This document shows positions 1,174 through 24,414 of a stretch of DNA of 31,600 nt, piece after piece (the stretch's first letter is position 1; every line of letters begins with the position of its first letter). The position numbers were made by a program, and so were the translations under genes. Source of the DNA: a virus; IMG/VR virus record IMGVR_UViG_3300020470_000121, positions 1 to 31,600 of that record. One strand, given 5' to 3'. The notes beneath the pieces are model-generated. The model was not told where the DNA came from. It ran no database searches and worked only from the letters and a program-made list of their open reading frames with translations.

Positions 1174-1902
1174 CTATTCTTTCTTATTTTTCTCAGAATC
1201 CAGATAGGGCAAGTAGTCTAGTCGTTCTAAGTCCTTCAAGATAGTTCGGTAGGCAGCCAGCAGATCTCCTTTGTCTTCTCTAAAAATATCTTTATCGAAT
1301 GACTCTTGCGTGCCAGCTTTCCATAGTCTCATGCTGTCAGGGCTGATCTCATCAGCCAGCACCAGTTCTCCGTTCTTATCATAACCAAACTCAATCTTAA
1401 AATCTACTAGGTCTAAATTAATTAGATTAAATAATCTTATCAATTCTATATTAACCTTATTAGTTATACTAATGAATGTATATGGATCGTATCCCATTAA
1501 CTTCATTCTGTCAGGAGTTAATAATGGATCACCTTTGCTGTCATCTTTCAAATGAAACTCAACTAAAGGTTCATTAAACTCCGTACCTTTTTTAATTGTA
1601 GTCTGTCTGCAGATGGAACCCGCAGCTTTATTTCTGACGACTACCTCTAAAGGAACAATGTCTAACTTATGACATCGCATTGTAGCTAACCCATTAGTAT
1701 CAATCCAATGATTTTTTATACCAGATTCACCTAACCTTTTAAAGATAATCGTAGAGATCTTACAATTAATACTACCTTTATCCTTCATACTCTCTTTCTT
1801 CGCACCCTCAAAGGCAGTAACATCATCTTCAAACCTAATAAAAACTTGATCCTTAGTGTACTCAAGGACAGTCTTGACCTTCCCCCTATTTAAAATCAAC
1901 AT
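1174..1902 (-). CDS. purC: SAICAR synthetase (phosphoribosylaminoimidazole-succinocarboxamide synthase)
   Basis: Joins aspartate to CAIR with ATP in purine synthesis. The protein (242 residues from this start) shows family landmarks in order: the RGKVKTVLEY nucleotide-loop region, the FEDDVTAFEG segment, NHWIDTNG, VVRNKAAGSICR, and a C-terminal DKDIFREDKGD segment. The length is normal for bacterial PurC. An ATG four codons upstream (1914) is in frame, but GGGAG lies just 5 bases before the ATG at 1902, so I prefer 1902. Purine genes are common auxiliary genes in T4-like cyanophages and are thought to boost nucleotide supply for genome replication. It stands alone here, between the terminator at 1937-1963 and the small-gene cluster. 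Confidence 0.93.
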   Translation of the reverse strand: MLILNRGKVKTVLEYTKDQVFIRFEDDVTAFEGAKKESMKDKGSINCKISTIIFKRLGESGIKNHWIDTNGLATMRCHKLDIVPLEVVVRNKAAGSICRQTTIKKGTEFNEPLVEFHLKDDSKGDPLLTPDRMKLMGYDPYTFISITNKVNIELIRLFNLINLDLVDFKIEFGYDKNGELVLADEISPDSMRLWKAGTQESFDKDIFREDKGDLLAAYRTILKDLERLDYLPYLDSEKNKKE

Positions 1903-1936
1903 AAAATCTCCCATACATTATAGTTAGGCATTAAAA

Positions 1937-1963
1937 AGGACCCCACTGATCAGGTGGAGTCCT
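1937..1963 (-). terminator. rho-independent terminator after the beta-barrel gene
   Basis: A 10-bp stem (1937-1946 paired with 1954-1963, one G-U pair) with a 7-base loop. On the minus strand it is followed by TTTTTAA. It ends the transcript from the gene at 2010-2393 and insulates purC from it. Confidence 0.85.
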
Positions 1964-2009
1964 TCGTTTACTTTAAAGTATATTGTTAACCTATTCTATT
2001 GTACGTTAA

Positions 2010-2393
2010 TCAGAAGACGAACTTAGCGCCAAGTTTTCCACCGAAATCAACGATGCTGTCGCCACTTGAATCCTCATTAGAGATTCCAGAGAGCTCACCG
2101 TAGATTGAAAGATCTTCAGTAGCGGCTACAGAAACGCCAACTTTACCAGAAAGTTCTGTTTCAGTGTCGTCAGAAGACTCAGTGTGAACGAAGCCAGGGC
2201 CACCTTGTACATAGTAAGCAAGCTTACCATCGTCTGTGGAACCTTCGAAACCGATATGAACGTCGGTTGTGGCTGTTGTGTAATCGCCATCAGGATATGA
2301 TGCGTTAGCCTCAACGTTAACGTATGGACCTGCAAAAGCAGCGCCAGCGAAGAGGGGTGCAGCTGCAGCAGCTGCGATTAGAGGTTTAAACAT
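2010..2393 (-). CDS. secreted outer-membrane beta-barrel-like protein
   Basis: A 127-residue protein with a clear signal peptide (MFKPLIAAAAAAPLFAGAAFA, cleavage near residue 21). The mature part alternates polar and hydrophobic residues, as in beta strands: PYVNVEANASYP, TTDVHIGFEGS, KLAYYVQGGPGF, LSGKVGVSVAAT, LSIYGELSGIS. It ends GGKLGAKFVF; a terminal Phe after a final beta strand is the usual BAM-recognised signal of outer-membrane proteins. The size would give only a small barrel of about 8 strands. It forms its own transcription unit, with a late promoter (2544-2551), a roughly 140-base structured leader and a strong terminator. It may modify the host envelope late in infection. The fold is inferred from pattern only. 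Confidence 0.75.
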   Translation of the reverse strand: MFKPLIAAAAAAPLFAGAAFAGPYVNVEANASYPDGDYTTATTDVHIGFEGSTDDGKLAYYVQGGPGFVHTESSDDTETELSGKVGVSVAATEDLSIYGELSGISNEDSSGDSIVDFGGKLGAKFVF

Positions 2394-2538
2394 TTTTCTT
2401 ATTGAAGTATCTTGCAGATTGGTTACCTGCAGATGAAGATGTCTCGACTTGACATCGTGTAGGTTTAACTTACAGACCTAGCGCGAGTAATTGAGGCATT
2501 CGGAAAGATTGTTAATTTATGTGAAGCGTCCCTCACAT
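2394..2538 (-). promoter_or_regulatory. structured 5' leader of the beta-barrel gene
   Basis: Non-coding leader between the late promoter and the ATG at 2393. It holds three inverted repeats: ATGTGA/TCACAT (2519-2524 and 2533-2538, 8-base loop) right at the predicted RNA 5' end; TAGGT/ACCTA at about 2460-2480; and GATGTC/GACATC (2438-2443 and 2451-2456, 7-base loop). No strong Shine-Dalgarno precedes the ATG. A 5'-terminal stem-loop can stabilise mRNA, as known for ompA; applying that here is inference. Confidence 0.4.
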
Positions 2539-2543
2539 GATGT

Positions 2544-2551
2544 TATTTATC
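2544..2551 (-). promoter_or_regulatory. late promoter (GATAAATA)
   Basis: On the minus strand GATAAATA differs at one position from the T4 late consensus TATAAATA. It lies about 150 bases before the beta-barrel gene, in the only sizeable intergenic gap on the left side. The predicted start of RNA is near 2537. Confidence 0.55.
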
Positions 2552-2566
2552 ATACATTAAAGTTAC

Positions 2567-2580
2567 GGCTTCGTCAAGCC
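2567..2580 (-). terminator. small hairpin after the glycosyltransferase operon (weak terminator)
   Basis: A perfect 5-bp stem GGCTT/AAGCC with a 4-base loop, 16 bases after the stop of the GT25 gene on the minus strand, followed by only a short T run (ACTTTAAT). It could end the sugar operon, but the stem is short. Confidence 0.3.
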
Positions 2581-2595
2581 CCTACCCAAAAGAAT

Positions 2596-3441
2596 CTATG
2601 GTTCGGGTTCCCGACTCGTCATCTGTTGTGGAGTATCCTGTTTCTGTCTAGGATCTCCTCCAGCAACACGACCAAGATACGGATCATAATCAGTGATCAT
2701 TTCTATACTGATATCCGATCCACGAGTTTCCCATAGTTCTCTAAGCCCATTGTGACTTCCTCTATGGAATATTTCAATATGTTCTGGATGAATAGATGAT
2801 CCCAATTCAATCTTGTATAAGAAGATAGGACATGCATATGAACATCCAGAATTATAGATCAGATCATCAGCAACAGGTCTTGGTTTAACTCCATTGTCCA
2901 GACGGTACTTATCCGTACCTTTTACGTGCAATCTAAGTAACTTCTCTGCATGATGTCTTGTGATAACATAACATGCGGTGGAGAAATCATTTACAAATCT
3001 CTTATGTACATTTACATGCAGTTCGCCAGGGCAAATGACTGCAACCTGTACTAGATCCCAATCATATGGGACTCTAGCCATGAACTGTCTCCAAGTAAAC
3101 GTCCAATACTTAGCGATACTAATATCACAATCATCTTCCATGATGACTGCACTAGGAGCATCGGTCTCTTCTACAAAGTGTTTAAGTGCTTTAAGATGGG
3201 AAGTAACACAACCAATTTCTCCAGGCGAAACATTCTCTGGGTACTTACCCACAATGATATCACTTAGATCATCACCAGTAACAGGTCGTCCATCATAAGC
3301 AGAGATGCGATGGTAATTTTCTATCTCCCAGTACTTTAGTTGATCCTCCATCCATGCCATTCTCTCTGGTTCTTCGTCCAGATTAATGATATAAAGAGGT
3401 CCAAAGCCTTTTAATTTGTAGGCTGATTTATTCTTATCCAT
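2596..3441 (-). CDS. glycosyltransferase family 25 (LPS-biosynthesis type)
   Basis: A 281-residue protein of the GT25 family, which adds sugars to lipooligosaccharide or collagen-type acceptors. It shows the family order: an N-terminal PLYIINLDEEPERM strand and loop, RISAYDGR, the SPGEIGCVTSH motif (72-82), and the acidic metal site VIMEDD (about 99-104). It then has a YVITRHHAEKLL region. I start at the ATG at 3441, which overlaps the upstream stop as TAATG; an in-frame start 15 bases earlier would lie inside the upstream gene. Last gene of the sugar operon. The sugar donor cannot be told from sequence; galactosyl is common in the family. Confidence 0.85.
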   Translation of the reverse strand: MDKNKSAYKLKGFGPLYIINLDEEPERMAWMEDQLKYWEIENYHRISAYDGRPVTGDDLSDIIVGKYPENVSPGEIGCVTSHLKALKHFVEETDAPSAVIMEDDCDISIAKYWTFTWRQFMARVPYDWDLVQVAVICPGELHVNVHKRFVNDFSTACYVITRHHAEKLLRLHVKGTDKYRLDNGVKPRPVADDLIYNSGCSYACPIFLYKIELGSSIHPEHIEIFHRGSHNGLRELWETRGSDISIEMITDYDPYLGRVAGGDPRQKQDTPQQMTSREPEP

Positions 3442-4298
3442 TATTCTTGATACCACCCCTCACAATATACATCCTTAGTATCCTTATCCTTATAGTCTGG
3501 ACCGAACCACATCTTAGGAGCAACTACTGGACCCCTTCCATTCTGTAACCATGCACCCCACCAAGACATTGATGAGTTAGCAATGATTGCACCAGAACAT
3601 AGACTCATGATGCAGAGATCAACAAATGGTTCATAAGATCCATCAGGATACTTATCAGTTGGTTCTGATACAAGGAACCTATCATCAGCAAAGAACTCTT
3701 GTTCCTTAACCCACTCAGGAGAATCAGAACAAACAACTATAGGTTGATCTTCAGGGAAATGTTTTAATGCCCTTTCATAATACTCTACAGGTTGTGGTGG
3801 ATGTTGTGATGAACACTCAGTATATGCCCACTTGAATCCTCTTACGTCTGTAAGATTTGGATCTCCTCTTCTTACGTGTAAGAATAATGGTGCCTCATCT
3901 AATGAGTCTACCATCTCTTTACAAGGAGTCAGAATAGAATCATGAAAGGTAAAGTCCTGACGAATAATATTTTCTATATTCTTGAACCACTTCTCACTCT
4001 GGAAGAATCCAAAAAGACTTACATCATTTGGGCACATTGAATGAAGAACAGGATCAAAGTGGTAATGTTTTTCCATAACCACAGGAGCATGACCATTATC
4101 CAATATGAATTGATTCATTGGTTTCAATGAATCTAATGTAAAGGCCCTTCCAAGACTATAATTATCTACTCTTTTTGAATTGAATGGTGGAATACAAAAA
4201 TCATATCCACGACTTGCAGCAATACCTCTAACGGCAGCATACTGAAACATCTGGTTACCTAGACGACCTAGGTTTCCTAACTCGTTAAAGGCCAGCAT
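3441..4298 (-). CDS. GT11 fucosyltransferase-like glycosyltransferase (copy 1)
   Basis: A 285-residue GT11 (alpha-1,2-fucosyltransferase) family protein. GRLGNQMFQYA is at 11-21, the GDP-sugar-binding motif HVRRGD at 141-146, and the C-terminal motif ANSSMSWWGAWL at 240-251. All three are nearly canonical, making this the least divergent of the three GT11 copies in the window. Family members move L-fucose from GDP-L-fucose to galactose; GDP-L-galactose is a close analogue of that donor. It overlaps the upstream gene by 14 bases and the downstream gene as TAATG. Family membership is near certain; donor and acceptor are unknown. Confidence 0.9.
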   Translation of the reverse strand: MLAFNELGNLGRLGNQMFQYAAVRGIAASRGYDFCIPPFNSKRVDNYSLGRAFTLDSLKPMNQFILDNGHAPVVMEKHYHFDPVLHSMCPNDVSLFGFFQSEKWFKNIENIIRQDFTFHDSILTPCKEMVDSLDEAPLFLHVRRGDPNLTDVRGFKWAYTECSSQHPPQPVEYYERALKHFPEDQPIVVCSDSPEWVKEQEFFADDRFLVSEPTDKYPDGSYEPFVDLCIMSLCSGAIIANSSMSWWGAWLQNGRGPVVAPKMWFGPDYKDKDTKDVYCEGWYQE

Positions 4299-5121
4299 TT
4301 AATTGTTCTCCTCTCATCTTTAAGTAATCTAGTTTCGAATAATATGCCATCAGTTTGTCACGATCTAATCGGCGGATGTACTGCCAAAGGGCATCATTTT
4401 CTTGGAACTTTGGATTGTGATAGTGAGAATTAAATGTCCTACCATGTTCAAAGTGATAGATATCATCATTAACTCTACCAACTTTGAAACCAAATAGGTT
4501 GAGTCGGTAATAAAATTCACAATCCTCTGCTCCCCAAGAGAGAAACTCTTCATTCCAAAGTCCAGCAGATACTTCGCAGGCCTTTGTAATCATCTGGCCC
4601 CATCCAATAGAAGATGGGATTCTAGTAGAACTCTTTTGAACTATATCTAGATCAAAAGTGTTTCCATCAAAGGATGATAAAAACTTATCTAATAGATCAT
4701 CAGAATAATTTACTCCCCATTGGTAGATGCCACACCCAAAAGGATACACAGCATCAGAACCGTGGTCCTTAATAGAAGTGTAAGCAAGTTCAACACTATT
4801 CTTAGGCAGAACAACATCTACATCATGATTATACAGTATTGAAGTCTCAGATGCAACTAAAAGATCATTAAGAATTCTAGTCTTATGAAATAATTTCTCA
4901 TCACTCTCTTCAAATATGTGAACTAGATTATCATCATCCTTCACATACTTATTAATCTGTGGATAGGCAAACTCTTTAAAGACTGACTTCTTATCCTCCT
5001 CTTGGATGATAACTTTTGCCTCTGGATAATTATTGAGTATACAGGTTACCGAAGTAATAACATTACGTAAGCGATCATCTGACTCGATCCTACATGGTAA
5101 TAGGAATGTTAAATCTTTCAT
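4285..5121 (-). CDS. glycosyltransferase, GT-A fold (GT2/GT7-C-like)
   Basis: A 278-residue protein with GT-A features: the N-terminal LTFLLPCRIESDDR strand, the metal-binding DxD in NHDVDVVLP (D100, D102), SWGAEDCEFYYRL (195-207) and a nearby HFEHGR (223-228). The G-A-E-D-x-E/D-F-x-x-R block is the hallmark of the C-terminal domain of galactosyltransferase-like enzymes. It transfers a sugar from a nucleotide donor; donor and acceptor are unknown. The ATG overlaps the upstream stop as ATGA. It sits between GT11 copies 1 and 2. Confidence 0.8.
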   Translation of the reverse strand: MKDLTFLLPCRIESDDRLRNVITSVTCILNNYPEAKVIIQEEDKKSVFKEFAYPQINKYVKDDDNLVHIFEESDEKLFHKTRILNDLLVASETSILYNHDVDVVLPKNSVELAYTSIKDHGSDAVYPFGCGIYQWGVNYSDDLLDKFLSSFDGNTFDLDIVQKSSTRIPSSIGWGQMITKACEVSAGLWNEEFLSWGAEDCEFYYRLNLFGFKVGRVNDDIYHFEHGRTFNSHYHNPKFQENDALWQYIRRLDRDKLMAYYSKLDYLKMRGEQLNAGL

Positions 5122-6023
5122 TCTTCTGGTGTCACTGGGGAGGGATCATTATGAATCTTCATCCATCTTTCTGGAATCATATCCTTCATATTATAATGGG
5201 CATATGCAGAACCGAACCAAGGATCGGGTGCAATAATAGGTTTCGTAGGGTTCTTTATCAACCATGCGCCCCACCAACTCAGAGAAGAGTTAGCTATAAT
5301 TCCACCAGAACATAGGGACATAAGACAAAGATCAATGTAAGGTACGGCAGCACCATCTCCGAAGACTTCATAAGATGAATCTGAGAAATGGAACTGGTCG
5401 CCCTGTAACCATTCCTGTTTCTTACACCAATCAATAAGATCTGATACTACTATAATATTAAGTCCTTTTAAAGGCATATTTTCTAATGCCTGTTTATAAT
5501 ATTCTGGTTTACATAGAGGATGATATTCCTGAACCATTTGATAGGACCACTTCTCTCCTCTCCTACCAGTTATATTAGGACTACCTCTACGAACATGTAA
5601 GAAGATACACTTCTCTCTTCCACCTAAACTATCAACGAACTCCTTGCAAGGCTCCAAGTAACAGTTGCGGAAAGTAAAATCATCTCTAATACTGTCAGCA
5701 ATATTCTCAAAGTATCTTTCTGTTTGGAAGTTGCCTGAGAAGTTAGTATTATCCTCACATCTTTCATAGATATCCTCATTGAAATGCATGTCACGGTACT
5801 CTACCTTCTTATGAAGGAAAGGTTCACCAGTATTCTTTTCAAGATTACAATTTGGTAGATTGAATGCTTCAAACAATCCATAGTTATCTAATCTATCTGC
5901 ATCAGGGCCAGGAACCACCCAATCAAAATGTCGATTTGCAGCGACACCACGTACAAAGGCATACTGAAACATCTGGTTACCCAGACGACCTTCATTACCC
6001 AATCCCTGAAATGTAATAGCCAT
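5118..6023 (-). CDS. GT11 fucosyltransferase-like glycosyltransferase (copy 2)
   Basis: A 301-residue GT11 protein. GRLGNQMFQYA is at 12-22 and the C-terminal ANSSLSWWGAWL at 244-255. Motif I reads HVRRGS (143-148), where the usual final Asp is replaced by Ser. The gene is coupled to copy 3 by a TAATG overlap and to the next GT by ATGA. It shares the block DLCLMSLC.GGIIANSS with copy 3, more closely than either does with copy 1. The Asp-to-Ser change may alter donor binding or activity, or the copy may have a different specificity. Confidence 0.88.
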   Translation of the reverse strand: MAITFQGLGNEGRLGNQMFQYAFVRGVAANRHFDWVVPGPDADRLDNYGLFEAFNLPNCNLEKNTGEPFLHKKVEYRDMHFNEDIYERCEDNTNFSGNFQTERYFENIADSIRDDFTFRNCYLEPCKEFVDSLGGREKCIFLHVRRGSPNITGRRGEKWSYQMVQEYHPLCKPEYYKQALENMPLKGLNIIVVSDLIDWCKKQEWLQGDQFHFSDSSYEVFGDGAAVPYIDLCLMSLCSGGIIANSSLSWWGAWLIKNPTKPIIAPDPWFGSAYAHYNMKDMIPERWMKIHNDPSPVTPEE

Positions 6024-6883
6024 TATTTACTCCAATCCAATGTGGTCCAGTAGCCTGGAAGAACTTCTGATGTATCTAGGTTTGACATTGCAGACCCAAA
6101 CCATTTATCAGGATTAGGAGCAATGATCTGACCAGTATCATTCTGAAGATAAGCTCCCCACCATGAGAAGGAACTATTAGCAATGATACCACCAGTACAT
6201 AGACTCATCAAGCACAAGTCAACTTGTGGTAACAAAGTATTCTGCATCTTACCAAGACCATCTATAGTTTGGTACTGATACCTGCCATTATTCTCATTGA
6301 AAAGGAACCTATCACTGTCAAAGAAAGATTGTTTCTTACACCACTCTAAGTCATCAGTGAAAACAAAACATGGAGTTTCTTCATCCCAGTGAGATAATGC
6401 CTGTTCAAAATATGATAGAGGTAGGATAGGATGATACTCTTCTCTTCCTATATTATCTGACTGTCTAATATGAAGAAAGATAGGATCGCCATCTATAGAA
6501 TCTATTATCTCTTTACATGGTTTCAAATAGTCATCCTTGAATGTAAAGTCTTCAAGAATCTGATCCTTAATATGGATAAAGTAACTCTCGGTTTGCATAT
6601 AACCATCAAGATTTACTCCATCCGTACAATAAAAAAGACCCTGATCAAAGGCATGAGTCTTTTCTTGAATAGTAATACCAGTGTTATACCCTAGATGTTC
6701 TGGGGTGGCATACTTCATATTAAAAGTTTCAAACAAACCATAGTTATCTTTATGGTTAGTCTCTTCAGGAGGGATCATCCAATGAAACCCATTGTATGCA
6801 GCAATGCCTCTAAGTGAGGCATACTGAAACATCTGATTACCTAATCGACCATTGCTACCAAGGCGATTATAACTTATGGTCAA
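6023..6883 (-). CDS. GT11 fucosyltransferase-like glycosyltransferase (copy 3), TTG start
   Basis: A 286-residue GT11 protein from this start: GRLGNQMFQYA at 12-22, motif I as HIRQSD (138-143), and NSSFSWWGAYL at 236-246. The second Arg of the usual HxRRxD motif is Gln. Start choice: GGAGG lies 8 bases before a TTG at 6883 that overlaps the upstream stop as TTGA. This start places GRLGNQ at residue 12, exactly as in copy 2. A GTG at 6898 is the alternative but contains the Shine-Dalgarno itself. Substrate unknown. Confidence 0.85.
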   Translation of the reverse strand: MTISYNRLGSNGRLGNQMFQYASLRGIAAYNGFHWMIPPEETNHKDNYGLFETFNMKYATPEHLGYNTGITIQEKTHAFDQGLFYCTDGVNLDGYMQTESYFIHIKDQILEDFTFKDDYLKPCKEIIDSIDGDPIFLHIRQSDNIGREEYHPILPLSYFEQALSHWDEETPCFVFTDDLEWCKKQSFFDSDRFLFNENNGRYQYQTIDGLGKMQNTLLPQVDLCLMSLCTGGIIANSSFSWWGAYLQNDTGQIIAPNPDKWFGSAMSNLDTSEVLPGYWTTLDWSK

Positions 6884-8031
6884 AGTTCTATCCTCCACAC
6901 GGGTTCATGAATCTCTTTCCGATTCTTAACAAAGATGATCCGATCATCATAATCTTCAACTAATTCATCTTGATATTCATCAATGACATCATCAAGTTCT
7001 CTGACGTATACGGTGTGTCCTTCTTTCAGCAAGTCTTCAACCAACCTAAATCTAGGACTTTCTACAACCATATCACATCCTACTTTGTATCCAATACTTT
7101 CGATACAAAATGGAAGACCTTCTTTATTCTCATTGATGACATAATCTTTTATGAAGTCTGCATGTGCCTCATTAAAATCATCCGTGACTTTGGGAAGACT
7201 ATACTGTAATCCAACAGAGTCAGCATAGTATCCTAACGCTCTGTTATCACGGGGCAAACAAGGACCACCAAACCCTAATCCATATTTCAAATATTTAGAA
7301 CCAATTCTAGAGTCCTCTCCTATGGCATCAAGGATGTTATCAATCTCATCTCCACAACCAGAGTTGTAAAGAATCTGACCCATCATATTAGCGTAACTAA
7401 TTTTATAAGTAAGGAAACAATTGATTCCAATCTTAGTAATCTCTGCAGCCTTTCTGGACATTGGGAAGAAATTTACTTCACCATCAATGATATCCATATA
7501 GATGGCTTGTATAAGATCAAATCCATCTGGATTATCACCACCACATAAGACCATATCTGCATCTCTCATGTCCCTGATAACAGTACCTTGAGCAACAAAC
7601 TCTGGACTATAGAAAACAGATACTCCTTTATCTCTTAACCGTTCTTGAACTGTATCAGCGTAGCCAGGATTAGTAGTACATCCTATAACAAAAGTCTTCC
7701 CCTCAAGGGTTGGAGCACCATCAAGATCTTCAACTACATCATCAACACAAGAGCAATCATAACTACCATCATCTAAAGATGGAGTAGGAACAAAAGTAAA
7801 AATAATATCCGAGTGACGGATTACATCTTGATTACTTGTAGTAGCCTGAAACTTCTCGCTTCTCATCAAGAGGTCATCGACCTCTGGTTCATTACTAAAA
7901 ATCTCACCATTGTTAAGTTCGCCAACATAATGTTGTCTTACATCAGAAACAATGACATCATGACCTGCTTCTTCACAAAGTAGAGCAAAACAAATTCCAA
8001 GTCTGCCTGCTCCTATCACTCCGATTTTCAT
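6880..8031 (-). CDS. UDP-glucose/GDP-mannose dehydrogenase family enzyme
   Basis: A 383-residue member of the UDP-sugar 6-dehydrogenase family, which oxidises a sugar nucleotide twice with NAD to a uronic acid. The NAD-binding GAGRLG is at 7-12, SPEFVAQGT at 142-150, the AEITKIGIN helix at 196-204, and the catalytic cysteine C258 in FGGPCLPRD (254-262). It is somewhat shorter than typical UDP-glucose dehydrogenases, at the C-terminal NAD-side domain. All catalytic landmarks are present, so activity is likely. The product would be UDP-glucuronate or a related uronate feeding the glycosyltransferases downstream. It could equally be specific for another UDP- or GDP-sugar. Confidence 0.88.
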   Translation of the reverse strand: MKIGVIGAGRLGICFALLCEEAGHDVIVSDVRQHYVGELNNGEIFSNEPEVDDLLMRSEKFQATTSNQDVIRHSDIIFTFVPTPSLDDGSYDCSCVDDVVEDLDGAPTLEGKTFVIGCTTNPGYADTVQERLRDKGVSVFYSPEFVAQGTVIRDMRDADMVLCGGDNPDGFDLIQAIYMDIIDGEVNFFPMSRKAAEITKIGINCFLTYKISYANMMGQILYNSGCGDEIDNILDAIGEDSRIGSKYLKYGLGFGGPCLPRDNRALGYYADSVGLQYSLPKVTDDFNEAHADFIKDYVINENKEGLPFCIESIGYKVGCDMVVESPRFRLVEDLLKEGHTVYVRELDDVIDEYQDELVEDYDDRIIFVKNRKEIHEPVWRIEL

Positions 8032-8034
8032 GAT

Positions 8035-8379
8035 CTAACTGTTTACCTCCTTAGATTTTCTAGTTCTTCTTTTACGTGGTGATTTAGGTTTTGTTAACCT
8101 GTTTGGAGCAAGACCACCTACCCAAGCTTCATTCTCTGGAGTAGTAGGATCATCTTTAATATAATGACCTTTCTTATTTCTTGCTCTGACTGGTTTAGTA
8201 ACCTTAACTTCTTGTTTCTCTTCTTGAACTACAGGTCCTCGGATTACTGAGTCCGTAATGAACTGTTCAACAGGATTACCTGTACAAATCTTTCTTATGT
8301 GGACAACTCTCTCGTTGCCTTCAATCTGATCACTGATAACTTCTATCGTTAGATAGGATGTAGACTCTGGAATTTTCAT
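8035..8379 (-). CDS. hypothetical protein with basic C-terminus
   Basis: A 114-residue protein. The middle holds RNKKGHYIKDDPTTPENEAW, resembling a short KGxxxxDDPxTPxxNEAW motif that I recall from various phage proteins of unknown role. The last 25 residues are Lys/Arg-rich (PKSPRKRRTRKSK), suggesting nucleic-acid binding or a flexible tail. It overlaps nadE upstream as ATGA and ends 3 bases before the dehydrogenase gene. Function unknown. Confidence 0.7.
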   Translation of the reverse strand: MKIPESTSYLTIEVISDQIEGNERVVHIRKICTGNPVEQFITDSVIRGPVVQEEKQEVKVTKPVRARNKKGHYIKDDPTTPENEAWVGGLAPNRLTKPKSPRKRRTRKSKEVNS

Positions 8380-9179
8380 GATTCTCCAAGTTTATATGTA
8401 GGAATTGGTCTCATCTTGTGTTGATTCTGTTTATTAAATTTTTTGTACTGTTCAATAGCCTTCAATTGTTCCTCCGAAAGATCGTCAGGTCTAAAGAATG
8501 GTTCATCAGCTCCAGACTCCATAACCCACTCAAGCATTTCATAAGAAGTACCAAGTTGATCTTCATCTGTTCTCTGATCATCCCACAGTCCATCAGTAGG
8601 AGCTGCGTCAATAATCTCTGGAATTAATCCAAACTCTCTTCCTAACTCCCTAACCTCTGACTTATAGAGGTCAGCAATAGGAGCAATGTCAACACCACCA
8701 TCACCATACTTGGTAAAAAATCCAACACCATAATCCTCTACCTTATTACCAGTACCAACTACTATACCATTACAAGATCCAGCGATCTGATACAAAGTCA
8801 TCATACGTAATCTTGCTTTGGTGTTCGCCTTAGCCAATGGATTAAGAGCAAACTCTATATTACAATCGCCCATCGTGGACATAAATTTAGAATAACTCTC
8901 ACTCAAATCTATCTTAACTGGTTGTACATTACTATATGAATTCTCCAACCAACTTAAATGAGCATCAGAAAGACTCTCCTGTTCGGGATCTTGTTTTAGT
9001 GGCATCCCAACAGCATAAACTTCTAAACCAGTCTTAGCACAAAGAGTAGAAGTAACAGCAGAATCAATTCCACCAGATACACCCACTACTAATTTGTCAA
9101 CTGGGTTCTTATTAATATAATTACAAAGCCACCCTGTAATATTACAGGTTAGAGTAAAGTAATCAGTGATCCTCTTCAT
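8376..9179 (-). CDS. nadE: NH3-dependent NAD synthetase
   Basis: Makes NAD from nicotinate adenine dinucleotide, ATP and ammonia. The 267-residue length fits the short ammonia-dependent type, with no nitrilase domain. The ATP pyrophosphatase P-loop SGGIDS is at 35-40, followed by KARLRMMTLYQIA, VVGTGNKVED, FFTKYGDGGVDIAPIADLYKS and PTDGLWDDQRTDED, all family landmarks. It overlaps the heme oxygenase gene by 17 bases upstream. In this island it may supply NAD for the sugar-nucleotide dehydrogenase and epimerases, or support host metabolism in general; both are inference. Confidence 0.92.
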   Translation of the reverse strand: MKRITDYFTLTCNITGWLCNYINKNPVDKLVVGVSGGIDSAVTSTLCAKTGLEVYAVGMPLKQDPEQESLSDAHLSWLENSYSNVQPVKIDLSESYSKFMSTMGDCNIEFALNPLAKANTKARLRMMTLYQIAGSCNGIVVGTGNKVEDYGVGFFTKYGDGGVDIAPIADLYKSEVRELGREFGLIPEIIDAAPTDGLWDDQRTDEDQLGTSYEMLEWVMESGADEPFFRPDDLSEEQLKAIEQYKKFNKQNQHKMRPIPTYKLGES

Positions 9180-9870
9180 TGTCTAATCCTAATTTTTCAG
9201 TTACAAAACCACAAAGAACTTGCATGAAAGCCTTAAAAGAATCTCCTTCAAGTTCACTAAACATATACATGTTCAATCTAAAAGCAAAATTAGCTTCAGT
9301 AATAATAGCATTTACCTCATGTTGATCAAGTGGTAAAGTATTAAGAGTGGCACGATAAGATTCTTTGAATGCTTTCTTATCAGTAATATTCTTGAACTCA
9401 TAGAAGTTCAACCCTTCACCAACTGGAAGATCTAAAGCACTCTTTGCAATGTTCTTTAGAATCTGTCCTCCAGACAGGTCTCCTAAGTAACGTGTGTAAT
9501 GGTGTCCGACAAGTAAATAAGGATTGTCTTGTGCCACTTCACGAATACGATTCACATACTGTTGACATGATTCAGTAGGAGTAACTATATTTCTCCAATC
9601 AGGTCCATAATAATATGAAAGATCCTTTGCAAGAGAAGCAGTACGATAGAGTTCTTCATAAGCAAGAGGACCAACCACAGGATGATCCTTTAACTTATCA
9701 ATCTCTTCCTCCATCGCCCTATAAACAAAGTAAAAGTCAGCAAGTAAAGTACGATACTTTTCAGGTTCAAGTACCCCCTTTAAAAATTGACTAACAAACT
9801 TAGTATTCTCTGCGGCAGAGTGAGACTTTTTAGTCCCTTGTTTTATCTGTACCGAAAAATCATCAATCAT
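9163..9870 (-). CDS. ho1: heme oxygenase
   Basis: Opens heme to biliverdin IX-alpha using reduced ferredoxin, the first step toward phycobilins. The 235-residue length matches cyanobacterial HO1. The proximal heme ligand is H17 in GTKKSHSAAE, and the distal helix has GDLSGGQ (130-136) with HHYTRYL just before it. Cyanophages often carry ho1 with a bilin reductase (pebS or pcyA); no such reductase is seen in this window. It is embedded between nadE and a methyltransferase in the sugar island, with an 8-base overlap with the latter. Confidence 0.93.
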   Translation of the reverse strand: MIDDFSVQIKQGTKKSHSAAENTKFVSQFLKGVLEPEKYRTLLADFYFVYRAMEEEIDKLKDHPVVGPLAYEELYRTASLAKDLSYYYGPDWRNIVTPTESCQQYVNRIREVAQDNPYLLVGHHYTRYLGDLSGGQILKNIAKSALDLPVGEGLNFYEFKNITDKKAFKESYRATLNTLPLDQHEVNAIITEANFAFRLNMYMFSELEGDSFKAFMQVLCGFVTEKLGLDNEEDH

Positions 9871-10642
9871 CTTTACGGGTTGCTAAAATAATAGTGTTCT
9901 CATAATCCCTGCCTTCATCGAAGGTAAAGTTTTCTTTAATCTTATCTATGAAATCATTATAATGGAAGTCATTAAAATTGACAAGGTTATAAACAAGATA
10001 TGCATACTTAGAATTAGCCACTAACTTATCAAAATATTCCATCTGAACTTCTATACTACACTCAGATAAAGCATAGTTACTAATAAACAAATCTATATCT
10101 TTAATCTCTTCGTACTCTGTGCATGGAATACACTTTACTTTATCTTTAATATCTGGGAACTGATCAATATATTTCCTCTGCAAAGCAACAACTTCTGGGA
10201 GGTCGATCATAACATACTCATCAAACTCACACACCTTACTAAGAACTCTACATAGTCCTCCATATCCTCCACCCACTTCAACTACTTTACTAATAGGACT
10301 ACCTTCAAGCATGAAAGCCATCTCAAAGGTATTCTTCATATACCTCAAAGTGGTTGGAGAAATAAGACCCTGCAAGCCTGGATACACATGAAGATCTGGA
10401 TTACCATACTTATCATTCTCTTTAAATGATTCAATGTTTTCCCACACAGCATCCTCATTCATATCCTTACAAATGTTTAGATATGTTTGTCCTTGATCTT
10501 TTAAAACATGTTCTAAGATAGTTTTATACTTAGGGTTTGCTTTAAAGTTAGCAAAGGCTTCATCATTTTCAACGGCCTCTGTACATGCAGCAAGATACTC
10601 TACTGCGATTTGATCTTCAGCCTGCCATCCGCTACGTGTCAT
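9863..10642 (-). CDS. SAM-dependent methyltransferase, putative sugar O-methyltransferase
   Basis: A 259-residue class I methyltransferase. The SAM-binding loop is VVEVGGGYGGL (about 120-130), followed by YVMIDLPEV, where the Asp would bind the ribose. The G-G-G-Y-G-G-L-x-R pattern with DLPEV and a later FISNYALSE segment resembles the putative sugar O-methyltransferase group often found in surface-polysaccharide clusters. Its position next to GT10 supports methylation of a sugar. It overlaps GT10 as ATGA. The substrate is inferred from context. Confidence 0.75.
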   Translation of the reverse strand: MTRSGWQAEDQIAVEYLAACTEAVENDEAFANFKANPKYKTILEHVLKDQGQTYLNICKDMNEDAVWENIESFKENDKYGNPDLHVYPGLQGLISPTTLRYMKNTFEMAFMLEGSPISKVVEVGGGYGGLCRVLSKVCEFDEYVMIDLPEVVALQRKYIDQFPDIKDKVKCIPCTEYEEIKDIDLFISNYALSECSIEVQMEYFDKLVANSKYAYLVYNLVNFNDFHYNDFIDKIKENFTFDEGRDYENTIILATRKDD

Positions 10643-11628
10643 ACTACATTACTCCGTTGTGTTCTGAATGGGTCCATTTGTGTGAAATAATTTTTATACA
10701 TGTAGTCTTCAGCGACTCTCATGTTCACGGCAATATCAAAGTTCTCTTGAATAACTTCCTTCTTAGATTCATAATACTCTGGTGTGAGTTTATCCCAAGG
10801 AATATTCTCCCAAGGTTGTCCTTCATCTAAGAATATAATTCCTTCAGGATTAAAGTATTGGGCTACCCCAAGAGTGCCATAATATACTGGTATTGTACCA
10901 CATGCGAAACAATCTGTCAGTTTCTCGGTAAAATACGTTGGATAATTTGCATTTTCACATGCAAAACTGAACATATAGTCAGCAAGGCCTTTAGATTTCT
11001 CTTTTATATCAAGTTCTTGAGGCAATCCCCAACCATATAGATCATCTCCACCATATTTCTGATGGAATTTCTCCACAACTCTTAGTCTTCTTTGATGTCC
11101 AAGAGTATATCCTTTATTGGATGCAATCATTGAGACGAGTTTAGACTTAGTATAGATGGCTCTATCCATTACCCAAGGTGCGGCATTAGACATACAATAA
11201 AGGAACTTACCATCTGGTCCTGATTCCTCAGTTAATCTCTGATCCGCTGTAAAAATTCCATCGACATGTCCTGCGATGAAATCATAATTATCTTCTACCC
11301 ATCTATACTCATTAGGAATAATCTCTCTCGATTCTAACAACCAAATAAATTTTGGATGATCAGAAGCATCCTCCATTACTTGTGGAGCAGAATGATTAAC
11401 ATACAAATTAACCAACCCCATACCGTCTCTAACAAATACAGTATATACTGATCTGTTATTGGCAGAGGTTGATGGATCTAATGAATCATTACAAAATAAA
11501 TTAATAGGAAACTTTTTATCGTCTCCTAATACTGGAATATCAATTCCTTCTGGACTAGACTTTGCACGAAACAAAGCATCCTTCATGTCTTGATGCAGTC
11601 TTTCGGCTAAGTCAGGATCTAGTGGCAT
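10639..11628 (-). CDS. GT10 fucosyltransferase-like glycosyltransferase
   Basis: A 329-residue protein whose C-terminal half carries the GT10 (alpha-1,3/1,4-fucosyltransferase) signature. A K.KLVSMIASNKGY.LGHQRRL region at 161-182 corresponds to the family's K-x-x-x-x-x-x-S-N block. The YFTEKLTDCFACGTIPVYYG block (232-251) corresponds to Y-x-T-E-K-x-x-x-x-x-x-x-G-x-x-P-V-x-x-G. These bind GDP-fucose. Together with the three GT11 genes, it makes four GDP-L-sugar-type transferases in one island. It overlaps the upstream epimerase by 17 bases. The real donor could be GDP-L-fucose or GDP-L-galactose. Confidence 0.82.
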   Translation of the reverse strand: MPLDPDLAERLHQDMKDALFRAKSSPEGIDIPVLGDDKKFPINLFCNDSLDPSTSANNRSVYTVFVRDGMGLVNLYVNHSAPQVMEDASDHPKFIWLLESREIIPNEYRWVEDNYDFIAGHVDGIFTADQRLTEESGPDGKFLYCMSNAAPWVMDRAIYTKSKLVSMIASNKGYTLGHQRRLRVVEKFHQKYGGDDLYGWGLPQELDIKEKSKGLADYMFSFACENANYPTYFTEKLTDCFACGTIPVYYGTLGVAQYFNPEGIIFLDEGQPWENIPWDKLTPEYYESKKEVIQENFDIAVNMRVAEDYMYKNYFTQMDPFRTQRSNVV

Positions 11629-12869: not shown

Positions 12870-13457
12870 TTAAGCCCAGTCAACTACATGTTTAGATCCA
12901 AAGTTTACTAATCCAGTACCACTCATGTGGCCTACTTCAGATACATCTAGTTTAGGTTCAGTGATAGACTCCCACATATACTCAACATCAGGCCAAGCAG
13001 GTCCAATGTCATCGAGAAGAATAAGACCAGACCAGCCTTGTTCCTCTAAGAACTCCATCATTTCAACTTCTTTGATGCCATCATGAGGATCAACATCAAT
13101 CATTATAATAGAAACATGGTTCCAATTCAAGTCATCTTCACGAAAATCTTGAATCTTAAACTCAATGTTCTCTTTGTTTATCGCTTGGGTTGCACCCTGT
13201 TCCACCAAATCATAACTAATTACCTTGTTTGTAGGGTTATGAGAAAGTGCCAGAGCGGAGCCTCCTGTTCGAGTACCTACATCTAGGATAATAGATTGAT
13301 TAAAAAATGTGGAAAGGTATGCATACAACCTATATTCACTCTGACCAGCAGACAACCAATCATTTTTATTGATTGATTGATTCTCTAGTTCTGAAATGTC
13401 TAGGTTTCTTACGTCGTCTTTGTTAATCTTGACGGTTTTTTTAGTAACTTTACGCAT
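12870..13457 (-). CDS. SAM-dependent methyltransferase (class I, CmcI/Methyltransf_24-like)
   Basis: A 195-residue protein. The SAM-binding loop is ILDVGTRTGGSALAL (57-71), with SYDLVEQG after it. A DVDPHDG motif (121-127) precedes LILLDDIGP, where the acidic cluster could bind a metal, as in methyltransferases of the cephalosporin-hydroxylase/Methyltransf_24 type. It overlaps the upstream GDP-mannose epimerase by 8 bases and is followed 2 bases later by the glycine-zipper gene. Sugar methylation is likely from context but unproven. Confidence 0.75.
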   Translation of the reverse strand: MRKVTKKTVKINKDDVRNLDISELENQSINKNDWLSAGQSEYRLYAYLSTFFNQSIILDVGTRTGGSALALSHNPTNKVISYDLVEQGATQAINKENIEFKIQDFREDDLNWNHVSIIMIDVDPHDGIKEVEMMEFLEEQGWSGLILLDDIGPAWPDVEYMWESITEPKLDVSEVGHMSGTGLVNFGSKHVVDWA

Positions 13458-14571
13458 TTACCAGTTCCTTCGTTGACGAATTTTCGACCCCTCCAGCCTC
13501 ATCAGCCTTCTGGGAATTGATTTGTTCAGTTATCCAATGGTATGTCTTACGAATACCATCTTCAAGTGATTGAGAATAATCCCAACCAAGTTCCTTACGG
13601 ATTACATCGTTGTTAGAGTTACGTCCTCTAACTCCTAGAGGTGCATCTAATACATGACGTTTAGATACAACCTTACCTGCAACCTTAGCAGCAGTATCTA
13701 CTAGTTGGTTGATGGTAACCATTTCTTCGGATCCGATATTGACAGGTCCTTGGAAGGTTGAGTCCATGAGTCTTCGAGTTGCTTCGATGCACTCGTCGAT
13801 GAAGAGGAAGGATCTTGTCTGCAACCCGTCGCCCCACACTTCAATCGGTCCTCCCACATCTGGGACCATCGCAACCTTTCGGCAGATAGCTGCTGGAGCT
13901 TTTTCTTTTCCTCCGTCCCATGTTCCTTCGGGTCCGAAGATATTATGATACCTGGCAACACACACAGGGATGCCATGATTACGATTGTAAGCCAAGTACA
14001 ATCTCTCTGAAAAAAGTTTCTCCCATCCGTATTCGGAGTCGGGGTTTGCGGGGTATGCTGATTCTTCACGGCAGTCAGGATTATCTGGATCAAGTTGATT
14101 ATGTTCTGGGTACATACAAGCAGAAGAACTATAGAAGATCTTAGTCTTGTTTACTCCCTTAACATCATTAAGTTTCTTTTGTTCCTCCAGAACATTTAAG
14201 TTTATTGTGGCAGAATTATGCATGATATCTGCAGAGTGTTCATCAGTAAAGATGTAACCTGCACCTCCCATGTCAGCAGCAAACTGATAGATCTCATCGA
14301 AGGTATCAATGTATTGAAATGGTACAGAATTATAGAAGTTTTTATAAGGTCCTCTATATTCTAATACACGTTTAACTAAACTAGGATCTCTCAAATCACC
14401 TTGCACAAACTCATGTGCCTCAGTAGGAGAGAAATCTGGATACTTTAAATCTACGCCACGAACCCAGTATCCTTCAGATACTAGCCTCTTTACCATGTGA
14501 CTACCAATAAAACCACCTGCACCCAATACCAATGCAGTCCTTCTAAATTCTGACATTACGCTGTTATTCAT
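13450..14571 (-). CDS. GDP-mannose 3,5-epimerase (plant GME type)
   Basis: Converts GDP-D-mannose to GDP-L-galactose. An extended SDR of 373 residues with GAGGFIG at 17-23. Four active-site positions known from Arabidopsis GME (C145, Y174, K178, K217) are matched here by C152 (SSSACMYPE), Y181 and K185 (YGWEK) and K224 (GGKEKAPAA), all with the same offset of +7. Other shared blocks are RYHNIFGPEGTW, WGDGLQTRSFLFIDEC, GPVNIGSEEMV and GVRGRNSNN. An ATG five codons in (14556) is an alternative start and fits the late promoter at 14585-14592 better, because it leaves a leader. This is a precise assignment by memory of the plant enzyme. Confidence 0.9.
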   Translation of the reverse strand: MNNSVMSEFRRTALVLGAGGFIGSHMVKRLVSEGYWVRGVDLKYPDFSPTEAHEFVQGDLRDPSLVKRVLEYRGPYKNFYNSVPFQYIDTFDEIYQFAADMGGAGYIFTDEHSADIMHNSATINLNVLEEQKKLNDVKGVNKTKIFYSSSACMYPEHNQLDPDNPDCREESAYPANPDSEYGWEKLFSERLYLAYNRNHGIPVCVARYHNIFGPEGTWDGGKEKAPAAICRKVAMVPDVGGPIEVWGDGLQTRSFLFIDECIEATRRLMDSTFQGPVNIGSEEMVTINQLVDTAAKVAGKVVSKRHVLDAPLGVRGRNSNNDVIRKELGWDYSQSLEDGIRKTYHWITEQINSQKADEAGGVENSSTKELVNA

Positions 14572-21839: not shown

Positions 21840-21933
21840 AATAAGCTATTGCATCTTCGTGTCGTTGTTCATCAACTAATTGATGCAGCCTATCAATGAG
21901 TTCATCCCTAATCTGATTCTGAGTTGAGTCCAT
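21799..21933 (-). CDS. small acidic hypothetical protein
   Basis: A 44-residue helical protein (MDSTQNQIRDELIDRLHQLV, then RHEDAIAYYEEYQEVL). The ATG at 21933 gives a 26-base overlap with the GIY-YIG gene; a longer reading from 22002 would put its first 23 codons in the nuclease gene, so the short form is preferred. Its length and overlaps on both sides make it uncertain, but the composition is protein-like. Confidence 0.5.
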   Translation of the reverse strand: MDSTQNQIRDELIDRLHQLVDEQRHEDAIAYYEEYQEVLVRPDC

Positions 21934-22384
21934 CGAAATAGTCCTTCCTGTAATAACGACCGAGAACATTGCTATTGTAGAAGGCTGGTTCTCCGTTGTC
22001 AAGTGCTTCTGTCAGTACGTTATTTAAAAAGAGTTGTCTCGTCTCTTCGTAATTTACTTTTCCGCCTGTTTTGTGGAGGGATAAGATTTCACGTTTGAAA
22101 AATTCTCGTCCAAGTTCTTTAACGTCTTGCTTAAGTTCTTCAGAACTTCCGTAGTACTTTTTCCAGTCACTCTCAGTCGTAATGCGGCGTTTCCCACCTC
22201 TAGGCTTTCTACGCTTGGTAAAATATTTTCTTCCGATGTATTGTTTACCCGACTTGATATTAGTAATGCGGTAGACGTAACCGAAGAAGTCGCCAATATC
22301 GTCAGAAGTAAAAGTTGTACCTTTGTATGTCCAGGCGTTCTCATAATCTCTTTCACCCACTGGGGTCTTTGTGGTGGTGTCCAT
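21908..22384 (-). CDS. GIY-YIG family endonuclease, free-standing
   Basis: A 158-residue protein. The GIY part reads GYVYRITN (35-42) and the YIG part KQYIGRKYF (47-55); an Arg/Lys-rich stretch and a KKYYGSSEEL block follow. EREILSLHKT-like residues lead to a Glu in NYEETRQLF (113-114) at the place of the catalytic metal-binding Glu. Similar proteins occur in T4-like cyanophages and resemble Seg-type homing endonucleases. No intron or split gene is seen around it. It may cut competing phage DNA or take part in its own DNA metabolism. Confidence 0.75.
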   Translation of the reverse strand: MDTTTKTPVGERDYENAWTYKGTTFTSDDIGDFFGYVYRITNIKSGKQYIGRKYFTKRRKPRGGKRRITTESDWKKYYGSSEELKQDVKELGREFFKREILSLHKTGGKVNYEETRQLFLNNVLTEALDNGEPAFYNSNVLGRYYRKDYFDGLNSESD

Positions 22385-22435: not shown

Positions 22436-23149
22436 TCATTTGGAAAATCGTTCACGTAATATTTTCCAAGTATCATTATATGTATCTACAGAATGAGCCA
22501 CCCCACCTCTAGATTCAACAGCCTGTGCTAAGGAATAATCATTTCCACCTTCCTTACATCTATCACCAAAGAATTCTATCTTATCATCATCTTCAAAGTC
22601 TCTTAAGATCTGACTCTTATCAGAACCTATTGGTCCAATATCAATACCAGTCTGTCCTCCTAGTGCAACACTTAAGTCTGGAAATTGATCAATCAATCTT
22701 AGTGCTATGAATTTTCTCTCACTGTGTATTTTATTGTAACTAATGTATTCTGCTCTACCAGCAGAAGGGTCTTTACCTCTACCTAAGATACTAAAGTTAA
22801 CTGCGCCAGGTCTTTTCTCAATATGATTTCCATTACGAATCTTCCTAGGAAACTGACTAAAATCTAATTCATCCTGTAAGAATCTTTCTACTTCTTCAGG
22901 AAGTTCCCAGTTATCTCTATAGACATTCTTATCGCCTTCATATACATCACTACCTGAACAATTATAAACTCTCTTTGATCTGTTGTATAAATCCTCACCC
23001 ACTTGCTCTAATGTTTTCTGTCTATCACTACCTGTGACAAGATAAACATCATTCTCCCACGAGAATTTGAGCATGAATGCCCTAAAATCTGGATCAATCT
23101 GACACCTACTAGGAGTCAACGTGCCATCAACATCAAAAATATATTTCAA
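22436..23149 (-). CDS. eukaryotic-type phosphomannomutase (HAD superfamily), TTG start
   Basis: Converts mannose-6-phosphate to mannose-1-phosphate, the precursor of GDP-mannose. The 237-residue protein follows the human/plant PMM order. The nucleophile motif FDVDGTLTPSR has D6 and D8. GSDRQKTLEQVGED, KIRNGNHIEKRPGAVNFSILGR, GGQTGIDIGPIGSDKSQ (167-179), FFGD (193-196) and GGND (201-204) follow. It begins at TTG 23149: the codon just before is an in-frame TAA and no ATG precedes the DVDGT motif, so the TTG start is required. Bacterial PMMs are usually of the unrelated ManB type. It fits upstream of the GDP-mannose epimerase in the same genome. Confidence 0.85.
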   Translation of the reverse strand: MKYIFDVDGTLTPSRCQIDPDFRAFMLKFSWENDVYLVTGSDRQKTLEQVGEDLYNRSKRVYNCSGSDVYEGDKNVYRDNWELPEEVERFLQDELDFSQFPRKIRNGNHIEKRPGAVNFSILGRGKDPSAGRAEYISYNKIHSERKFIALRLIDQFPDLSVALGGQTGIDIGPIGSDKSQILRDFEDDDKIEFFGDRCKEGGNDYSLAQAVESRGGVAHSVDTYNDTWKILRERFSK

Positions 23150-23172: not shown

Positions 23173-24414
23173 CTATCTCTTAAGTAGTTTATCGGCAATC
23201 CTTTGGACTGCACTTCTATCTTTATTAGACTTCCATCCTCCGCCCTTCTTGGGAGTTAAAACTTCGCCTGGTCTTAATCTCCTTTTCGAGGATTCCATGT
23301 CTTTTTTGACTTGCTTCCAATTCTTTCCATACTTCATCCTCTGAGTTTTTGCATCCATCTCTGTCTTCCACTCGGAAGCTCTTCTCTCTTGTCCTGATTG
23401 TACAAATGATTCGTTTGCTTTCTTCTTTAAAGAAATAATTTCTAGTTTCTTAGTCTTAGGTTTCTGTTCGGATGAACCTGACTGTGGTGTCTTACCCTTA
23501 CCATAGACGGGTCCAATACCATACTTTGGCTTAGATCTTCTATTGGTATTAGTTCTATCAGAACCTCTCCAACCATGCACCTTCGATGCAATTGCATCAC
23601 TACTCTTTGGTTCTATTCTTTCTATTTTACCTTTAGTGCCTCTGCGTCCTACCTTTTTAGGTGCCTTTCCAAAAGACTTAAGTTTTTCAGTACCACCTTG
23701 TCTCCATCTCTGTTTTCTTGTTTTATTACTCTCACCTTTTTTCTTTTTCTTTTTCTTTTTCTTTACAGTAACTTCAACCTTCTTCCAAATAGATTTACCT
23801 TTTGGCTTAGGTTTAGATTCATCACCCCTTCCAGCATGAATCTCTTTCTTTAATGCTTCATACTCCTTCATCCCCTCAGTCATCTGACCTTCTGGTTGGG
23901 TCTCTGCTGTCAGGGCTTCATAAGGAACTGCTCTTCTATTCTTAATCTTCTTATCTGCTACTGCTTTCTTATGACGTTTAACACTTTTCTTGAACTGATT
24001 TATAATACCTTCTGCAACTTCCGTCTTCTTTTCTTCTCTAATTCCAGCATCACGCATAGCAGAAGTTCTAATTTCTTTCTTACTTGCTGGACGCATACGA
24101 CCTTTACCCTTTCTAGGTAAATAATCAGTCATTGCACTATCTACATCATGATCATGTTCACGTCTATTGCCAGGAGTTGCATGAGGTTGACTTAATTTCT
24201 TACGATCTTTTGCTTGCCTTTCAATAGCTTCAGAAACTTCCTTCTTCTTTTTCTTCTGAGCTCTTAATTGAGCAACAGTCCAAGCAGCACGTTTATCCTG
24301 TTTCTCAAGGTTATACAAATCACCTGCTAACTTTTCTTTATTACTACTAGGATCAATTGAACCCTTAGGCCAATCCTTAGTACGAGTTGAGACTAATGGA
24401 GATTCACTTAGCAT
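23173..24414 (-). CDS. very basic Lys/Arg-rich hypothetical protein
   Basis: A 413-residue protein of unknown function with an extreme Lys content, including a run of nine lysines (218-226), KKKKK at 54-58 and many KKxxK groups. Predicted disordered, with a few motifs: REHDHDVDSAMTDYLPRKGKGR, ASKKEIRTSAMRDAG, GWRGSDR (281-287). GWRG[ST]DR is shared with the gene upstream. It overlaps that gene by 11 bases. Probably made late from the promoter at 25081-25103. Nucleic-acid binding is suggested by charge alone; it could be a DNA-condensing or internal virion protein. Confidence 0.7.
   Translation of the reverse strand: MLSESPLVSTRTKDWPKGSIDPSSNKEKLAGDLYNLEKQDKRAAWTVAQLRAQKKKKKEVSEAIERQAKDRKKLSQPHATPGNRREHDHDVDSAMTDYLPRKGKGRMRPASKKEIRTSAMRDAGIREEKKTEVAEGIINQFKKSVKRHKKAVADKKIKNRRAVPYEALTAETQPEGQMTEGMKEYEALKKEIHAGRGDESKPKPKGKSIWKKVEVTVKKKKKKKKKGESNKTRKQRWRQGGTEKLKSFGKAPKKVGRRGTKGKIERIEPKSSDAIASKVHGWRGSDRTNTNRRSKPKYGIGPVYGKGKTPQSGSSEQKPKTKKLEIISLKKKANESFVQSGQERRASEWKTEMDAKTQRMKYGKNWKQVKKDMESSKRRLRPGEVLTPKKGGGWKSNKDRSAVQRIADKLLKR

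Follow-up and report, generated by a model that had tools for sequence, protein, structure and literature searches.

Eukaryotic α-phosphomannomutases (PMMs), among them human PMM1 and PMM2 and the T. cruzi enzyme (8b5v), are close described counterparts of the viral protein discussed here, with which they have in common the fold, the cap, the DxD pair and the residues Arg21/123/134/141, Asp181, Lys189 and Asp209. The phage proteins differ from them by a sequence identity of only 32-35%, by Gly in place of Ser179, by their location in phage genomes and, in relatives of the protein, by an operon with glycogen phosphorylase (GlgP). The atypical α-phosphoglucomutase of Lactococcus lactis (4bnd) belongs to the same superfamily and employs the PMM fold as a glucose mutase; it is more distant from the phage protein (~21% identity), with Lys at positions 21 and 141, Gln at 134 and Thr/Asn at 179/181. 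Human PMM1 and the L. lactis enzyme illustrate that this fold can handle either sugar. Cyanophages, in turn, are known to redirect the carbon of their host away from the Calvin cycle and into the pentose phosphate pathway.

Glycogen phosphorylase is listed among the host proteins with viral homologues (PMC10452541), and the "carbohydrate phosphorylase" of cyanophage S-SCSM2R is the same GlgP as that described below next to PMM. Cyanophage S-SCSM1 possesses a sugar-nucleotide block similar to that of the present locus, including a GDP-mannose 3,5-epimerase (GME) that is 64% identical; MPI, GMD, GFS and GME have been described for this phage, while a phosphomannomutase was not reported (PMC9602691), and a search with the window protein likewise gave no PMM match in S-SCSM1. 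In the literature searched, neither an earlier description of a phage phosphomannomutase gene nor one of a GlgP-mutase pairing in viruses was found.

The gene and its enzyme class

The window, i.e. the whole stretch of 31,600 nucleotides analyzed here, derives from an IMG/VR virus record (IMGVR_UViG_3300020470_000121) and carries marker genes of T4-like cyanophages (cyanomyoviruses). Its PMM-family open reading frame and the accompanying features are compiled in Table 1.

Table 1. Features of the window relevant to the PMM-family gene and the sugar block.
Feature	Position	Strand	Remarks
GT11-family (fucosyltransferase-like) glycosyltransferase	3441..4298	-	
GT11-family glycosyltransferase	5118..6023	-	
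GT11-family glycosyltransferase	6023..6898	-	
UDP-glucose/GDP-mannose-type nucleotide-sugar dehydrogenase	6880..8031	-	
NAD synthase and heme oxygenase genes	8376-9870		within the sugar-metabolism block
GT10-family (fucosyltransferase) homologue	10639..11628	-	
GDP-mannose 3,5-epimerase (GME) homologue	13450..14571	-	Arabidopsis GME, E=1.7e-80
SegE-like GIY-YIG endonuclease	21908..22384	-	PF19835, 1.8e-53
HAD-type phosphohexomutase (PMM family)	22436..23149	-	PF03332, 237 aa, TTG start
Lys-rich 413-aa ORF	23173..24414	-	upstream of PMM, in the place of GlgP in L134/L135

The PMM-family reading frame is a real gene. An in-frame TAA directly abuts the TTG start codon (...GTTAA TTG AAA TAT ATT...), just as an earlier note on this DNA had remarked. 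Since the DVDG motif occupies residues 6-9, ahead of the next Met (residue 26), any later start would remove this motif, which identifies TTG as the true start. The same note had treated this codon as remarkable, but non-ATG starts are ordinary in the clade nearest to the window, whose members use TTG, GTG and apparently CTG (L001, L004-L006, L010, L017-L020 and L024); these starts often overlap or abut the stop codon of regA or glgP. Between close relatives, dN/dS ranges from 0.03 to 0.29, and the phage protein is thus under purifying selection.

All motifs that had been quoted from the protein (DVDGTLT, RNG...NFSILGR, GGQ..ID..P.G.DKS, FFGD and GGND) are present in the order given. The Pfam PMM model PF03332 matches with 86.8 bits against a curated cut-off of 22.4 (E=2.4e-24), and PF02878, domain I of the bacterial ManB/PGM α-D-phosphohexomutases, is not among the Pfam matches of the protein. 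In a search of solved-structure sequences, the best matches were phosphomannomutases (T. cruzi PMM, E=2.7e-31; human PMM2, E=2.6e-22). The protein's own phage family is phrog_29277 (E=8e-100), which is listed as "unknown function". An AlphaFold (AF2) model built from 28 sequences reached a mean pLDDT of 93.9 and displays the PMM cap fold. When it was compared with the PDB by Foldseek, the best 22 matches were all phosphomannomutases, headed by the T. cruzi enzyme (TM 0.89/0.86) and followed by the L. lactis α-phosphoglucomutase. The earlier assignment to the HAD-type PMM family, with a PMM cap and distinct from bacterial ManB, was hence borne out by both the profile search and the superposition.

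In human PMM2 numbering, which is used throughout for the alignment, D12, D14, R21, R123, R134, R141, D181, K189 and D209 are identical in 87/87 phage and 6/6 eukaryotic proteins. The alignment also retains the nucleophile and acid/base pair of the DxD motif and the metal-binding residues Asp209, Asn216 and Asp217; the roles given to these positions are presumably those established for the human PMM1 structure. The sugar loop is altered in one position: Ser179 is replaced by Gly in all 87 phage proteins, while it is Ser in all cellular PMMs sampled. Asp181 of the same loop is kept; S179 and D181 are conserved in PMMs and not known to be indispensable. Based on sequence, residues, fold and selection, the window protein is very probably an α-phosphohexomutase of the HAD/PMM family. 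In the predicted mechanism, Asp6 of the phage protein would serve as the phosphate carrier and Asp8 as the acid/base, while the cap arginines would grip the hexose phosphate, so that phosphate could be moved between C1 and C6 via a hexose-1,6-bisphosphate intermediate.

Distribution and origin

PMM and GlgP loci were sampled via peptide patterns. In IMG/VR, PMM is encoded by at least 104 homologous stretches, and three isolates, P-TIM68, S-SSM7 and S-SSM6a, bear the gene, where it is annotated as "hypothetical". Marine T4-like cyanophages frequently carry PMM relatives, which form one old clade. Among 744 sampled cellular genomes of three phyla, PF03332 was rare: it reached ~1% in two phyla, where most matches were weak HAD-IIB ones, and 12 of 149 genomes in the third. 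In 14 control genomes it was found in L. lactis only; Synechococcus elongatus, which belongs to this set, has PF02878 and lacks PF03332. Plasmid matches turned out to be weak HAD-IIB hydrolases (26-29% identical). Two apparent cellular carriers (L088 and L089) were discarded as hosts, as they are phage-like contigs with T4-type genes that were binned into metagenome-assembled genomes (MAGs), and a third contig (L087) is too short to be judged cellular or phage. Overall, four such phage-like PMM contigs (L088, L089, L090 and L093) reside in Rhodobacteraceae and Neomarinimicrobiota MAGs, and in one MAG three contigs each carry a PMM gene.

Genuine chromosomal PMMs exist in bacteria as well. PMM was found in eleven more genomes of the phylum to which MAG G049 belongs, several times on contigs of 100-730 kb. 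The chromosomal PMMs from the GTDB phylum of the Neomarinimicrobiota MAG (L101-L110) are the nearest cellular relatives found and have the full Arg set; unlike the phage proteins, they keep Ser179 and, where looked at, adjoin genes for a polyprenyl synthase and a bifunctional phosphoglucose/phosphomannose isomerase (PGI/PMI). The bacteria in which a eukaryote-family PMM lies on the chromosome near PGI/PMI (L101-L111) have small genomes, and in both of the two checked a bacterial-type PF02878 enzyme is also present.

A first tree was built with six eukaryotic PMMs and with HAD-IIB proteins of bacteria as outgroups; in it, the phage proteins formed one clade that was sister to the eukaryotes and not placed within them. 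Upon inclusion of the ten chromosomal bacterial PMMs, phage and bacterial proteins grouped together (support 97/94), with the phage clade being monophyletic (99/97) and outside the eukaryotes. The alternative grouping of phages with eukaryotes was 7.2 log units worse and is not rejected by the AU test (p-AU 0.18). Moreover, the phage proteins are 36-40% identical to the bacterial chromosomal PMMs, compared to 32-35% for the eukaryotic ones. The bacterial side is favored as the nearest cellular kin, not proven; the tree has long branches and a sparse sampling of eukaryotes, which limits this conclusion. A recent capture of a eukaryotic, e.g. algal, PMM gene would agree with the eukaryotic enzymes being the best solved-structure matches and with the outcome of the AU test; in view of the monophyly of the phage clade, its grouping with bacteria and the higher identity to bacterial PMMs, such a capture appears highly improbable. 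Hence, the term "eukaryotic-type", which the earlier note had applied to the protein, describes its family well, but is weak as a statement of its origin.

Additional sugar-related genes occur in more distant phages. Deep-branching members carry an HldE/TagD-like nucleotidyltransferase within ~1.2 kb of PMM (L089, 4991-5820; L036, L079, L088, L090 and L085), with the copies of L036, L079 and L088 being 77-79% identical to that of L089. A copy in Acinetobacter phage Ab1-TPeters is 61% identical, while the mutases there reach only ~27%. As an activating step for the window-like clade this candidate was dismissed, since it was not found beside PMM in that clade. In all seven Acinetobacter phage records that have a distant PMM/PGM relative, a cupin gene is located shortly upstream of it, a possible isomerase-mutase pair; the cupins of L084 (5630-5980) and L085 (5174-5479) are GPI-like.

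Coupling to glycogen phosphorylase

A hint to the substrate comes from the gene neighborhood. In one relative (L006), a full-length GlgP (794 aa, 1750-4131, PF00343 with 1016 bits) is encoded directly upstream of PMM and overlaps its start. Used as a query, this GlgP matched 204 IMG/VR stretches, 80 loci of which were fetched. PMM is present in 15 of them, always downstream, and lies 4.7 kb away in one; the remaining 14 phage contigs feature GlgP directly upstream of PMM (9 overlapping, 5 within ~0.7 kb) at two unrelated genome sites, a count that is inflated by shared descent. Sixty loci extend at least 700 bases past GlgP on the downstream side, and fewer than one locus would be expected to show PMM within 0.7 kb if every such phage placed the gene randomly in ~200 kb. 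On the PMM tree, the GlgP-linked proteins require five label changes, four of which are forced, so that the link does not reflect one local clone; in the clade that holds the window, 8 of 16 rows are GlgP-linked. GlgP is generally common in marine T4-like viral contigs (L006; L113-L191), in many of which it is inserted between regA and hsp20.

The two sites have the arrangements RegA-[GlgP]-PMM-Hsp20, with RegA matching PF01818, and [GlgP]-PMM-SegE, and each occurs with and without GlgP. The window represents the second site without GlgP, in the place of which the Lys-rich ORF is found; this ORF gave no family match and has no homologue in the fetched loci. SegE is conserved downstream of PMM (40 + 7 other loci) and of GlgP-PMM (L127, L134, L135, L162 and L163). 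The gene carries the label "NAD synthetase" in phrog_447 and S-SSM7, which is probably an annotation error in light of its Pfam score for SegE.

GlgP releases glucose-1-phosphate, and the next step of glycogen use is catalyzed by a glucose-1-phosphate mutase. The pairing therefore points to a glucose substrate. A PF02878 mutase was not found in P-TIM68, S-SSM7 and two long PMM-bearing contigs (G031 and G032). During infection, glucose-1-phosphate could thus be obtained from host glycogen, via the phage GlgP in many relatives and via the host GlgP where the phage has none, and the phage mutase would convert it into glucose-6-phosphate for the pentose phosphate pathway. Activity on mannose phosphates, for glycans derived from GDP-mannose, is possible as well, and one enzyme may serve both sugars. 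As judged from sequence, there is about an even chance that glucose is the main substrate, and a main role in glycogen breakdown appears more likely than GDP-mannose supply. The proposal as a whole, a HAD/PMM α-D-phosphohexomutase that channels glycogen-derived glucose-1-phosphate into glucose-6-phosphate and perhaps accepts mannose phosphates, is about evenly balanced between right and wrong. Somewhat more tentatively, GlgP-PMM may constitute a mobile two-gene glycogen-breakdown cassette of marine T4-like cyanophages that occupies two unrelated sites, with a glucose-shifted mutase clade marked by the loss of Ser179, of which the window would hold the mutase half.

Alternative substrates and activities

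The glucose role has to be reconciled with several observations. GlgP is absent from the window, which is a fragment, and from the complete genomes of P-TIM68 and S-SSM7, both of which have PMM, and no PMM is seen in four out of five of the GlgP loci fetched; as IMG/VR contigs are fragments, gene absence in them proves little. In addition, the sugar block of the window, with GT10, GT11 and GT25 homologues and the nucleotide-sugar dehydrogenase, includes the GME homologue. In the latter, the motifs with the catalytic Cys, Tyr/Lys, Lys and Arg are retained as judged by eye; the gene is labeled "UDP-glucose 4-epimerase" in many cyanophages, and plant GDP-mannose 3,5-epimerase fits far better. A true phosphomannomutase could accordingly provide mannose-1-phosphate for GDP-mannose, with the host ManC performing guanylyl transfer, and phage GME would furnish GDP-L-galactose or GDP-L-gulose for the GT10 and GT11 enzymes, which would decorate the host surface or the virion. 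This possibility is a serious one, if less probable than the glycogen role. It is consistent with the fold and arginine set of a PMM, with the isomerase genes near the chromosomal bacterial PMMs and with the presence of GME in all five PMM-positive cyanophage records (from the three isolates) as well as in four of four PMM contigs with >20 kb downstream; GME is found in 37 phage records, and uvsW marks ~469 cyanophage-named records. Yet, S-SSM7 and S-SSM6a hardly differ in length and match, which leaves about two independent lineages behind the GME link of the isolates, and GME-linked rows are unclustered on the PMM tree (8 changes, equal to shuffles). In favor of mannose, a mannose-6-phosphate isomerase (MPI) gene is located near PMM in L012, in L028 and in the L033 record; MPI occurs in 5 of 11 related records, though not in P-TIM68 or S-SSM7, and no window ORF matched MPI. 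A ManC-type nucleotidyltransferase (PF00483) was not found in nine related records, and a mannose role does not account for the overlapping GlgP genes; the loss of Ser179 also counts against it.

Loss of this serine across the whole clade could also be taken as a sign that the protein is not a mutase at all but a HAD-type phosphatase acting on hexose (bis)phosphates, which would drain the activator of the host mutases and thereby throttle them. The fold class is the same as that of HAD-IIB phosphatases, and human PMM1 acts as a glucose-1,6-bisphosphatase under IMP. However, the phage proteins keep all four arginines of known mutases, two or three of which are missing from bacterial HAD-IIB relatives. 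In these relatives, as in the L. lactis enzyme, position 21 is Lys or Cys, position 141 is Lys and position 134 is mostly Gln. A phosphatase is thus an unlikely solution. Placement among generic HAD phosphatases, which the earlier note had named as grounds for giving up the PMM assignment, was looked for, and both residue comparison and tree speak against it. Of the designation "phosphomannomutase", the family part stands, while activity on mannose is putative; a phosphoglucomutase is at least as likely, given the clade-wide Gly at 179 and the coupling to GlgP in many relatives.

If the proposed glycogen role is correct, the mutase beside phage GlgP would close the gap between stored glycogen and glucose-6-phosphate, the entry point of the pentose phosphate pathway. 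A function could thereby be proposed for phrog_29277, and the "eukaryotic" PMMs have bacterial and viral kin.
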